Shown here piece by piece: positions 34,295 to 45,918 of a stretch of 64,000 nt of DNA. How positions within the stretch are numbered: position 1 is the stretch's first letter; every line of letters begins with the position of its first letter. The stretch covers positions 806,001-870,000 of the forward strand of contig NZ_JBBNAC010000001.1 of NCBI RefSeq assembly GCF_037996825.1. Direction: 5' to 3'. The translations under genes and the position numbers were made by a program. The notes under the pieces were generated by a model. The model made no database searches, was not told the origin of the DNA, and saw only the letters and a program-made list of their open reading frames with translations. This stretch comes from Bdellovibrio sp. BCCA (GTDB lineage Bacteria > Bdellovibrionota > Bdellovibrionia > Bdellovibrionales > Bdellovibrionaceae).

Positions 34295-34430
<136 letters not shown>

Positions 34431-34450
34431 AAAAAAATAAAAGAAGAACA

Positions 34451-34478
34451 TTGACGGGGACAAAAAAATCATTAAGAT
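34451..34478 (+). promoter_or_regulatory. possible second rRNA promoter between tRNA-Ala and 16S
   Basis: TTGACG (34451-34456) and TAAGAT (34473-34478) are separated by 16 bases. Transcripts starting here would skip tRNA-Ala. Confidence 0.45.
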
Positions 34479-34524
34479 TGGTTCCTCGCGCTTCGGTAAC
34501 GAAGCAAATGCGATTTAAAAATTT

Positions 34525-34540
34525 CGCTCTTTGAAAACTG
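34525..34540 (+). promoter_or_regulatory. boxA-like antitermination site in the 16S leader
   Basis: CGCTCTTTGAAAACTG resembles the boxA core TGCTCTTTAACA bound by NusB-S10. A similar site precedes 23S. Confidence 0.65.
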
Positions 34541-34543
34541 AAT

Positions 34544-34570
34544 AGCTAGATAGAAAAGATTTTTGGGCTC
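34544..34570 (+). other. 5' strand of the 16S processing stem
   Basis: These bases are complementary to 36267-36290 after 16S, with two long matched blocks (AGCTAGAT and GATTTTTGGG). The stem loops out the whole 16S, the usual RNase III substrate. Confidence 0.75.
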
Positions 34571-34660
34571 TTTGAATGATGAGTAATTATCATTCGCAAT
34601 TTCAAAAAATAAATTCGAACAAACACAGCGTAAGCTAGTTGTTTGGTTGAGAACAGAATT

Positions 34661-36183
<1,523 letters not shown>

Positions 36184-36266
36184 TATCCGGTCAATCTTCA
36201 CTAAGACATGTTCTTAGTAAGTTAAAATGACCCAATCTTAGGTCAACTTACTCTTCCCGAGTAAGT

Positions 36267-36290
36267 GAGTCCCAAAAATCTCATCTAGCT
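36267..36290 (+). other. 3' strand of the 16S processing stem
   Basis: Partner of 34544-34570. Just before it, at about 36247-36266, CTTACTC and GAGTAAG form a small hairpin. Confidence 0.75.
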
Positions 36291-36338
36291 GTTTAGTTTT
36301 GAAAGAGTGAATTTCTCTTTATTTCTCGCATCTAACAA

Positions 36339-36415
<77 letters not shown>

Positions 36416-36475
36416 ACTAATGAGTTGGACTGTTAAGTGTGAGTGATAGAAGAGAGATGACACGCGAACGATTTT

Positions 36476-36490
36476 CGTTCTTTGACAATT
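36476..36490 (+). promoter_or_regulatory. boxA-like site before 23S rRNA
   Basis: CGTTCTTTGACAATT closely matches the spacer boxA of other bacterial rRNA operons. Confidence 0.65.
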
Positions 36491-36530
36491 GAATAGATTG
36501 ATTTAGTTGATTTTTAGCGAGGTTAGTTCC
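36486..36530 (+). other. 5' strand of the 23S processing stem
   Basis: 36486-36519 is complementary to 39615-39647 with only a few mismatches, and 36520-36530 to about 39576-39585. Together they close a long helix around 23S. Confidence 0.8.
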
Positions 36531-36535
36531 ATTTT

Positions 36536-39474
<2,939 letters not shown>

Positions 39475-39575
39475 AAATTTTTCTTCTTAACATAGTTAAC
39501 GAAGATTTCGTTTCTAAGACCTCTTTTTAAGAGCGAGAAACTAGCTCTCTGAATAAGTAAGAGAGTGATTAATTT

Positions 39576-39647
39576 GGGACTAACCAACCTTACTCTGACA
39601 CGATCAGAGTAAGTCGCTAAAAATCAGCTAAATCAATCATTCAGTTG
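39576..39647 (+). other. 3' strand of the 23S processing stem with internal hairpin
   Basis: 39615-39647 pairs with the 23S leader. Between its two blocks sits a perfect ten-pair hairpin, CTTACTCTGA (39589-39598) with TCAGAGTAAG (39604-39613). The remaining 23S-5S spacer holds no tRNA. Confidence 0.75.
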
Positions 39648-39746
39648 TAATGATAAAAGAAGTAACTTCTCCATTTGGATTGGAAGTAAGTTGCAAAGAA
39701 CGAAAAGGTTAGTGTAAGAAGCTAACCACTTTGATTAATAAACGCT

Positions 39747-39866
39747 TTGCTGGTGTTTATAGCAGAGGGGCCACACCTGATCCCATTCCGAACTCAGAAG
39801 TTAAGTCCTCTTGCGGCGATGGTATTGCACGGGCGACCGTGTGGGAGAGTAGCACGACGCCAGCTC
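39747..39866 (+). rRNA. rrf: 5S ribosomal RNA
   Basis: About 120 bases. GCTGGTG and CGCCAGC close the terminal helix. The internal CACCTGATCCCATTCCGAAC and CAGAAGTTAAG are the conserved 5S core. The ends are approximate. Confidence 0.96.
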
Positions 39867-43124: not shown

Positions 43125-43297
43125 CTCCCGCGCCATTTGTATTAAAAAGTGCTTAATCTGATTTTGATTTATTCAAATTGAGACAAAATGTTTTATAAAA
43201 TGTAGAACTTCTAATCATCGCCATGAATCTTTCTTGTTTGTTACTTTTTCTGAACCTAAGGCTTTAGTCCTGAAAGTGGTTTCCGATACATCTAACC

Positions 43298-43984
43298 ATG
43301 GGCATGTTAGACAGATACAAAAAAAAGGGCGGCTTCAATCAACTTCTTCAACTTCTTGAGACTTCTCCTATGGCGAAGCGAGAGCAGTTTTTAGGTCTTA
43401 TCGCAGGGGAAAGTCCCGCGTGGGAGGATGCGCTTCGTAAGCGAATCCTGACGATCGATAAGGTGTATAGTTGGGATGGGCAATATCTCGTAGAAATCTT
43501 TTCGCGAGTGCAGCCACTCACGTTGGCGAATGCACTTCATGGCTCTCCACAAGAGCAAGTGGATCAGCTTCTAGGCTGCCTGCCGCCGATTTCTAAACGC
43601 AAGATCACAGATCTTTTGGCAGAGTCAAATCCGACCCCCGCAGAGAAGTCGACGTGTATTTCAAGAATGCTTTCTGAGGTGCGCGGGTTTATTTCGCAAG
43701 GGATCTTGAAGCTAGAAAAGATTGATCCGGATCTGCATGTTCCTGAGAACATCGAAGAGGTGCTCAGTGCAGGTGGTTTCACGGTGCCTCTGACATATGA
43801 TTACGATACCACGAAGAAAGAGGCGAAACCGGCTGCCGTTGGTGAGACGACAGATCCGGGCGCGCAGCAAGAAGTGGATTTCTTAAAAAGAAAACTCAAT
43901 CAACTTGCCTCTGAAGTGAATGCTCTAAAGCACGAAAACTCTGTCTTAAAAGACAAGCTCACTCAGATTAAAAAGATCGCTTAA
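43298..43984 (+). CDS. FliG C-terminal-like protein with coiled-coil tail
   Basis: 228 residues, soluble. Residues about 10-142 align by eye with the middle and C-terminal domains of flagellar rotor protein FliG: ILTIDKVYSWDGQYLVEIFS, ANALHGSPQEQVDQLLGCLP, SKRKITDLL and EVRGFISQGILKLE follow FliG's order of helices. The N-terminal FliF-binding domain is missing, and some torque-helix charges seem altered. A Pro/Thr linker and a coiled coil (190-226) are added. No flagellar gene is adjacent. There is no clear ribosome binding site before the ATG, and a second ATG at 43304 is possible. It is probably a repurposed FliG-like scaffold. Confidence 0.65.
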   Translation: MGMLDRYKKKGGFNQLLQLLETSPMAKREQFLGLIAGESPAWEDALRKRILTIDKVYSWDGQYLVEIFSRVQPLTLANALHGSPQEQVDQLLGCLPPISKRKITDLLAESNPTPAEKSTCISRMLSEVRGFISQGILKLEKIDPDLHVPENIEEVLSAGGFTVPLTYDYDTTKKEAKPAAVGETTDPGAQQEVDFLKRKLNQLASEVNALKHENSVLKDKLTQIKKIA

Positions 43985-44190: not shown

Positions 44191-45918
44191 ATGTCATCGC
44201 AGATGTTCAGCATGTTTGTTGGGTCGCTTTTGGTCGTGTCTGTTTCAGCGCAAGCTCAATCTTTGTCTGTTCCACAGCTCGACCTAGAGTCACAATTCTA
44301 TCAAGAGTTAGCAAAAGAGTCGGGTCAAGATGTTCCAACCGCGAAAGGATTTCTCGAAGAAGTTCCAGATGGTTTGAGCACAAAGGACATGAGTCCTCAA
44401 TGTGATCCTCGACGTTTCGAAGATAGCATTGTCGGTAAAAAACTTTCCACCGCGCAATACTACAAAGTTGCCAAAGATTATTTCGCAAGATGTGCGAATG
44501 AGCTAACAAGCAACTCTACAACGGGGATTTTGGGACTTCTTAAATTTTCGAAGTTTCAATATCCGTTCCTCACTCATCCGCAAGTGAAAGAATTCATGGT
44601 GAAACTTCCGGATGGAACAAAAATTCCGGGAATTTTGGCAATGAAACAAGATCCTCGTCCTCGTCCACTCGTAATTGTGAAGTGCGGCGTTTTCTGCTCA
44701 GCGGCGCAGACAGCGTCGATGAAAAGTTACTTGATGCACTTATTCGATCAAAGCCCGTTTAACGTTTTGCTTTTAGCGAATCAAACCGGCATGGACTATA
44801 TCTACTACAATAAAAAAGTAACTTTGGGCGGTTGGTCTGAAGGTTATGAAGCGATTGAGGTCGGTAAGTGGATGCGTGATAAGTGGGAATACAAAGATCG
44901 TATTTCCAGTGTTCACTTAATGGGTATCAGTCTTGGCGGTAATGCGGCCGTGATGGGCGCGGCTTTCAATGATAAATATCTTCTTCCTGATGGGAAAAAA
45001 GTGTTTAATTCAGTGACGGCGATTTGTCCGGTGGTAAGCCTTCGTCCGACGTTGGATCATCTGTTCGGCGGTCAAATTGTAGGTCGTATCTTTGCTAAAA
45101 TGTCGAAAGATCATTTTAGAGAAGCTCGTCAATACATCACGGATGTTCCTGATTTGATCACAGACGGAAAAATTCCATCCAGTCGTTTGGGTATGGCTGA
45201 TTATATCGGTGAGCTGGCGTCGACATCTTTACAAAGACGTGGAATTGCAAGCACTCCGCAGTCTTATTTCAAATCCAATAACTTCTGGAACTGGAAAGAG
45301 GAAGTAAAGACACCTTTAATGGTGTGGGCTTCCAAAGACGATATGGTTGTGAACAACGAAATCAACGCCCAAGTTGTAGAGCATGATGATTTCTATGAAA
45401 AGTCTGCGAACGTAGGCGTGCTTAATCTGAAATACGGAAATCACTGCGGCTTTTCATCAGCGTACGGAGCACAAGCTTCTGCGGCAGTGTTGAGAACTTT
45501 CGTATTAACTCACAGTCCCGAGTTCGTAGATGAATACAATAAGAAACAAGAAATGCCTTGGACATTTGGTTTCAAAAAACTGGGTCCTCAATATGAGCAT
45601 ATCGGTCAAAGCTGGAACTTTTCTTCTCAGTCAGACCAAGTGAAAGTTTCTTTCCGCATCTTTAATTGGAATGGCGGCAGAGAGTGTGCTGACAAAGGTC
45701 CATGGTTGGCGAACCGTTCGTGCACAACTACGAAAGAGATTTGGGTGCCAGTGTCTTCTTTGACAGCATTGGGTGCGCGTATTCCTCGTACGGAGGCGGA
45801 AGCTCAGGCATTGACTCGCGAATTTAACACGAAAGTGGAATTCCGTATCAAAGGCCATCCGCTTAATGGTACAAATAGTAATGAATTCTATATGATTTGG
45901 AGAAGTCACTTCGAATGA
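44191..45918 (+). CDS. secreted alpha/beta-hydrolase-like protein
   Basis: 575 residues with a signal peptide (MSSQMFSMFVGSLLVVSVSAQA). The core resembles YheT-type hydrolases: LVIVKCGVFCSAAQTASMKS, then HLMGISLGGNAAVMGAA with the nucleophile-type Ser near residue 247, WASKDDMVVNNE as the acid loop and KYGNHCGFSSAYG with the His. The C-terminal 110 residues appear to be an extra domain with two Cys. It is probably a periplasmic or secreted esterase or peptidase. The stop overlaps the pyroglutamyl peptidase start by four bases. Confidence 0.8.
   Translation: MSSQMFSMFVGSLLVVSVSAQAQSLSVPQLDLESQFYQELAKESGQDVPTAKGFLEEVPDGLSTKDMSPQCDPRRFEDSIVGKKLSTAQYYKVAKDYFARCANELTSNSTTGILGLLKFSKFQYPFLTHPQVKEFMVKLPDGTKIPGILAMKQDPRPRPLVIVKCGVFCSAAQTASMKSYLMHLFDQSPFNVLLLANQTGMDYIYYNKKVTLGGWSEGYEAIEVGKWMRDKWEYKDRISSVHLMGISLGGNAAVMGAAFNDKYLLPDGKKVFNSVTAICPVVSLRPTLDHLFGGQIVGRIFAKMSKDHFREARQYITDVPDLITDGKIPSSRLGMADYIGELASTSLQRRGIASTPQSYFKSNNFWNWKEEVKTPLMVWASKDDMVVNNEINAQVVEHDDFYEKSANVGVLNLKYGNHCGFSSAYGAQASAAVLRTFVLTHSPEFVDEYNKKQEMPWTFGFKKLGPQYEHIGQSWNFSSQSDQVKVSFRIFNWNGGRECADKGPWLANRSCTTTKEIWVPVSSLTALGARIPRTEAEAQALTREFNTKVEFRIKGHPLNGTNSNEFYMIWRSHFE

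Follow-up and report, generated by a model that had tools for sequence, protein, structure and literature searches.

A FliG C-terminal unit with a coiled-coil tail, encoded in addition to canonical FliG and confined to flagellates among the Bdellovibrionota genomes searched

Described FliG relatives and the domain content of the new protein

Within the C-ring of the flagellum, each FliG packs its ARM_C against the ARM_M of its neighbor and turns C1-6 toward the stator. A second FliG within one flagellate is known from spirochetes, which carry full-length FliG1/FliG2 duplicates. Outside the flagellum, a FliG-like helical fold occurs in the N-terminal domain of MgtE, a channel for Mg2+ that also has CBS and membrane domains. 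Bdellovibrio cells are very fast swimmers that use a single sheathed flagellum, possess three MotAB pairs and become nonmotile on entering prey. For B. bacteriovorus HD100 and Tiberius, “FliG (2 copies)” is counted in a passage of PMC3539863 that names no locus and gives no analysis.

Here we describe a gene of Bdellovibrio sp. BCCA, located in a window of 64,000 nucleotides (the whole stretch of DNA that was analyzed). A literature search found no study of its product. The open reading frame at 43298 to 43984 is present as the first-pass annotation had given it, and its product has the following parts.

43298..43984, + strand: coding sequence of a FliG_C-like protein with a coiled-coil tail, 228 aa (open reading frame read in the window; relatives in 86 of 100 related genomes; purifying selection)
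43322..43729, + strand: FliG C-terminal unit (ARM_C + C1-6), residues 9-144, from the Gly11-Gly12 hinge (Z 14.3 against FliG 192-328; Pfam FliG_C; orthologue alignment)
43778..43852, + strand: disordered linker, residues 161-185 (pLDDT <50; poor conservation in the orthologue alignment)
43856..43978, + strand: C-terminal coiled-coil helix, residues 187-227, in a conserved C terminus ending KKIA (AlphaFold2 helix; near-invariant leucines and isoleucine)

Several lines of evidence establish the protein as a true FliG homologue, beyond chance. First, residues 38-117 match Pfam FliG_C at 27.5 bits (E=4e-6; cut-off, 23.3), and phmmer matches the protein to the PDB FliG 3hjl (E=1.6e-4). Second, a profile of its family matches canonical FliG of the same phylum at E=1.1e-6 over 113 columns, the canonical profile in that comparison being shallow, and whole-genome searches with family profiles recover the C-terminal half of canonical FliG (E 1e-10 to 1e-12 with the profile of the short form described below). 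Third, the best solved-structure matches to an AlphaFold2 model built from 57 orthologues (pLDDT 88) are all FliG: Salmonella FliG 192-328 (VIA; Z 14.3, 136 residues aligned) and the FliG domain of the MotAB-FliG complex 8ucs (Z 13.3, rmsd 1.5 over 87 residues). The likeness to FliG proposed from the letters alone was thus borne out by both the profile search and the structure prediction that had been suggested for it. NCBIfam returned only chance matches to the coiled coil, and a viral fold library gave no match below E 0.65.

The protein shares with FliG (Pfam FliG_C, PF01706) the fold and helix order of ARM_C and C1-6, over the whole stretch between the Gly-Gly hinge and the final helix. 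Unlike FliG, it lacks both FliG_N, which Pfam did not detect and in whose place only a 10-residue peptide precedes the hinge, and FliG_M (EHPQR), for which Pfam gave no match at E up to 10. Absence of the FliF-binding N-terminal domain had been predicted; middle and C-terminal helices had been proposed together, and of these the C-terminal unit is present and the middle domain is missing as well. Spirochete FliG1/FliG2 resemble this case in being a second, divergent FliG in a flagellate, but those copies are full-length, whereas the present protein retains just the C-terminal part of FliG and adds a coiled coil. The likeness to the MgtE N-terminal domain (Z 6.4 over 54 residues of 8gps) is weaker and shorter than that to FliG; MgtE_N is absent by Pfam, and 228 residues hold neither a CBS nor a membrane domain.

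Also unlike FliG, the protein carries an added linker and coiled coil. The coiled coil, first placed at residues 190-226, is modeled as one helix of 41 residues (187-227; pLDDT about 90-96), in which L210, L221 and I224 are near-invariant over 57 sequences. A basic N-terminal peptide, M-x-M-L-D-R-Y-K-K, is likewise near-invariant before the hinge in orthologues. The torque charges of FliG are mostly lost: in 57 orthologues, mapped by hhalign in a register that is uncertain there by a few residues, the position of E. coli K264 is mostly H, R281 is I, S or T, and D289 is hydrophobic, with the D288 position still acidic (D/E) in 37 of the 57. This loss had been suspected from a hand alignment, although the VDDR region then taken as the torque helix is not that helix. 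The coiled coil and the basic peptide are better conserved than the torque surface.

Truncation relative to FliG and the loss of most torque charges would also be expected of a degenerate, functionless duplicate. We give that reading next to no credence, as dN between orthologues is 0.12 to 0.19 at dS of 1.3 to saturated, which indicates purifying selection, orthologues occur across the class, and the promoter described below is invariant; a pseudogene was rejected on dN/dS.

Paralogues, neighborhood and promoter

A count of FliG paralogues, as earlier suggested, gave one canonical FliG of 344 aa in the genome, which holds the place in the fli operon with fliF and fliH as neighbors, plus the present protein, encoded elsewhere. 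No flagellar gene adjoins the long form in the window, as first noticed, or in the neighborhoods of relatives that were read. A conserved operon partner was sought for the long form, but the neighbors change with genus and none is kept outside the genus; ABC transporter genes upstream, tried as partners, are local to one family (c5/c6). A complete rRNA operon (tRNA, 16S, tRNA, 23S, 5S) lies at window positions 34324 to 39865, about 3.4 kb upstream, and contigs of relatives end close to the gene because of it.

Long-form orthologues with a tail of similar length occur throughout the Bdellovibrionia, including HD100 (G006) and Tiberius (G002), the two strains with two FliG copies counted. In the 3,782,950-bp genome of HD100, the orthologue occupies positions 828327-829007. 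A short form of ∼155 aa, without the coiled coil and matching the long form at E 1.7e-51, occurs beside or in place of it. In three families flhG-fliA lies ∼6 kb upstream of the short form, with hisS and aspS in between (fliA called by NCBIfam; flhG by likeness to MinD/FlhG ATPases and position before fliA). Adjacency to flagellar genes in relatives, named at the outset as evidence against a role outside the flagellum, therefore holds for the short paralogue only, at that distance, and the long form is without it. At four short-form loci (L072:7462-8462, L079:7298-8450, L081:7584-8456 and L086:7983-8957), a small uncharacterized gene of 130 to 173 aa is directly 5′ of the short form (one product tested, with no Pfam match), and at three of the four both genes are ∼6 kb downstream of flhG-fliA; the other side of these loci is occupied by a convergent gene for a TadA/CpaF-like ATPase. 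A scan of named genomes with one peptide pattern matched Bdellovibrionota, plus a handful of records whose names are generic or doubtful; distant members may exist elsewhere. Of the short relatives from other parts of the phylum, such as Bacteriovoracia, some were checked individually.

Upstream of the gene is a sigma28/FliA-type promoter, whose two elements are as follows.

43262..43269, + strand: −35 element, CTTTAGTC (invariant in 22 of 22 Bdellovibrio orthologues)
43283..43288, + strand: −10 element of the same promoter, CCGATA, ending 9 bp before the ATG (unchanged in all 22; in agreement with the published consensus)

The arrangement CTTTAGTC-N13-CCGATA is invariant upstream of the ATG in all 22 Bdellovibrio species compared. 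The bases on either side vary, and between most of these species synonymous change in the gene is close to saturation, so the invariance reflects selection. The attack-phase promoter consensus of HD100 is TTAAG-N16-CCGATA, read as FliA/sigma28 (PMC3627812), and the activity of FliA on a flagellin promoter has been shown (PMC5430801); the attack-phase program is FliA dependent (PMC3627812, PMC5430801). The −35/−10 elements reported here have approximately the published sequence and spacing, and a flagellin gene of the same genome has CTTTAG-N15-CCGAT, with the same −35/−10 spacing.

TTTAGTC-N13-CCGATA has a single perfect match within the window, but a whole-genome scan for the exact pattern with one mismatch gave 26 matches compared to 34 in a reversed control. 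As this is no excess, the case for the promoter rests on conservation and not on rarity. Across the family, CCGATA occurs within 80 bp upstream of 41 of 69 long-form and 10 of 17 short-form genes compared to 29 of 741 neighboring control genes, these sequences not being independent and 11 of the 29 control matches belonging to the next downstream gene, which may share regulation. That downstream gene (44191 to 45918 in the window) encodes a large, secreted-looking hydrolase and has CCGATA upstream in 11 Bdellovibrio relatives; judged by this motif, it may also be an attack-phase FliA gene. Several short-form and some long-form genes (e.g., the short-form genes L085, L087, L090 and L091) have a possible operator about 25 to 40 bp before their CCGATA, in the form of a palindrome close to GTCTCAAnTTGAGAC.

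On this promoter evidence, expression of the gene would be driven by FliA. The mRNA is probably leaderless or nearly so, since the −10 element ends 9 bp before the ATG and no Shine-Dalgarno sequence is visible before it. FliA in Bdellovibrio also drives many nonflagellar attack-phase genes (PMC3627812), and the promoter therefore indicates phase rather than organelle.

Co-occurrence with the flagellum, pili and a FliF-FliG fusion

The family is present in 87 of 107 near-complete Bdellovibrionia genomes, in addition to a normal FliG encoded in the fli operon. It occurs in 87 of 98 flagellate genomes versus none of 9 nonflagellate genomes (Fisher p 5e-8, with the kinship of genomes ignored), and profile searches found it in none of the 17 flagellum-less genomes of the phylum. 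A single weak match (E 5.6e-5) came from a flagellum-less genome (G215), in a frame of 451 aa. Four genomes that had appeared to carry the family without FliG (G009, G062, G074 and G188) have FlhA or six flagellins and are flagellates with assembly gaps. On an rpoB tree, the flagellum-less genomes belong to several groups, each without the protein, and the starred branches force at least four label changes. Part of this co-loss may be explained by general genome reduction, as the flagellum-less genomes are also small.

The first-pass annotation had proposed work outside the flagellum, in gliding or pili. A FliG-like scaffold of such a nonflagellar machine would agree with the lack of flagellar neighbors of the long form and of FliF- and FliM-binding parts, and Bdellovibrio both glides and has pili (PMC3539863). 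A component of type IV pili should, however, be kept where the pilus outlasts the flagellum, and PilT is above its cut-off in 13 of the 17 flagellum-less genomes, all of which lack the protein. The FliA-type promoter and the location of the short paralogue near flhG-fliA also run counter to the proposal, which we consider improbable.

The protein is linked to the flagellum yet dispensable: 11 flagellate genomes are without the gene, and on the rpoB tree they represent at least seven independent losses. Flagellates that lost it are G004, G081, g40 (G082, G095 and G097) and part of g3. Dispensability in some flagellates would suit a FliA-regulated attack-phase or polar-organizing protein in which the FliG_C fold serves as a generic helical docking module that does not touch the working rotor, as might serve to place the flagellum, to control the quality of its assembly or to resorb it when prey is entered. 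Such a role would also agree with the FliA-type promoter, with the breadth of the FliA regulon beyond flagellar genes (PMC3627812) and with a coiled coil and basic peptide that are better conserved than the torque surface. It would require, on the other hand, that the FliG fold be kept for a new partner, and a flagellar partner explains the absence of the protein wherever the flagellum is lost more simply. We regard this role as rather unlikely.

Following up FliG_M matches in frames of 580 to 630 aa revealed a membrane protein that is encoded in HD100 (L288:1924-3654:−) as well as in other genomes. In a model of moderate confidence (pLDDT 73), residues 15-147 match FliF RBM3 (Z up to 11.5), residues 268-572 match whole FliG (Z 13.8, with a large overall rmsd, as for a multidomain chain), and a long hydrophobic helix (165-192) lies between the two parts. 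As modeled, the protein is a natural FliF(RBM3)-TM-FliG fusion of about 577 to 631 aa across genomes. It scores better as FliG (TIGR00207, E 1.7e-11, which is below the TIGR00207 cut-off) and may be the second of the two FliG copies counted in HD100 and Tiberius, instead of the orthologue of the present gene. The clusters that encode it fall into two classes.

L306:9424-16191 (HD100, G006:C1:2913423-2920190), L307 and L312: fusion cluster, first class
L308, L309, L310 and L311: fusion cluster of a second, diverged class, with a similar layout next to MotA and MotB

The fusion gene is accompanied by genes for a MotA and a MotB (MotB_plug + OmpA) of its own, for a lipoprotein that has TPR matches and for a VWA protein, and the first-class cluster also has a gene for a HAMP-SpoIIE phosphatase. 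MotA2 and MotB2 are Bd3021 and Bd3020 (PMC11323537), and gene order indicates that the stator pair of the HD100 cluster is probably this MotAB2. The cluster has the look of a rotary motor that is complete in itself and separate from the flagellum, and it is a better candidate for a nonflagellar rotary motor than the protein of the present study. If so, one “flagellar” stator pair of HD100 belongs to a separate rotary machine.

Could the protein be a loose subunit of this second MotAB-type motor? Its profile matches the fusion (E 1.1e-8, 129 columns) slightly better than it matches canonical FliG, for which the profile was shallow. Co-occurrence is nevertheless poor: G004 and G095 have the cluster without the protein, and the genome of the window has the protein, no detected fusion cluster and no FliG_M match besides canonical FliG. 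A domain tree groups the fusion with canonical FliG and places the family of the protein apart. Poor co-occurrence and the domain tree led us to reject membership in the second motor, which we hold to be very improbable.

Possible role at the flagellar rotor

The combination of a C-terminal FliG unit and a coiled coil suggests an add-on regulator or tether. We propose that the protein is an optional accessory of the rotor region of the flagellum, expressed from its FliA-type promoter in the attack phase, and that it docks on FliG or the stator; we rate this proposal at an even chance of being correct. Weighing against it are the loss of most torque charges, the repeated loss of the gene among flagellates and the lack of a conserved operon partner of the long form outside the genus. 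The protein corresponds to the part of FliG that packs on the ARM_M of a neighbor and presents C1-6 to the stator. Lacking a FliF- or FliM-binding part, it would be unable to build a ring alone; because only ARM_C and C1-6 are kept, it could dock on FliG or the stator but not anchor to FliF or FliM. Most likely its ARM_C would dock on canonical FliG, or its C1-6 would touch the stator. The flexible linker and coiled coil would then dimerize the protein or tie it to a second partner, and the outcome would be to tune how the rotor assembles, how the stator engages or how the motor switches while the predator swims.

A more specific version of this accessory role, which we put forward tentatively and consider doubtful, is that the torque/switch unit of FliG, detached and tethered by a coiled coil, serves as a rotor regulator that can be removed, such as a brake, a clutch or an adaptor of the stator. 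Its production in the attack phase would depend on FliA. It would represent a FliG-derived motor modulator of an undescribed kind, possibly one that stops or dismantles the flagellum at prey entry. As a putative accessory that derives from FliG, is conserved throughout the class and has an attack-phase promoter, the protein is a directly testable candidate for motor tuning.
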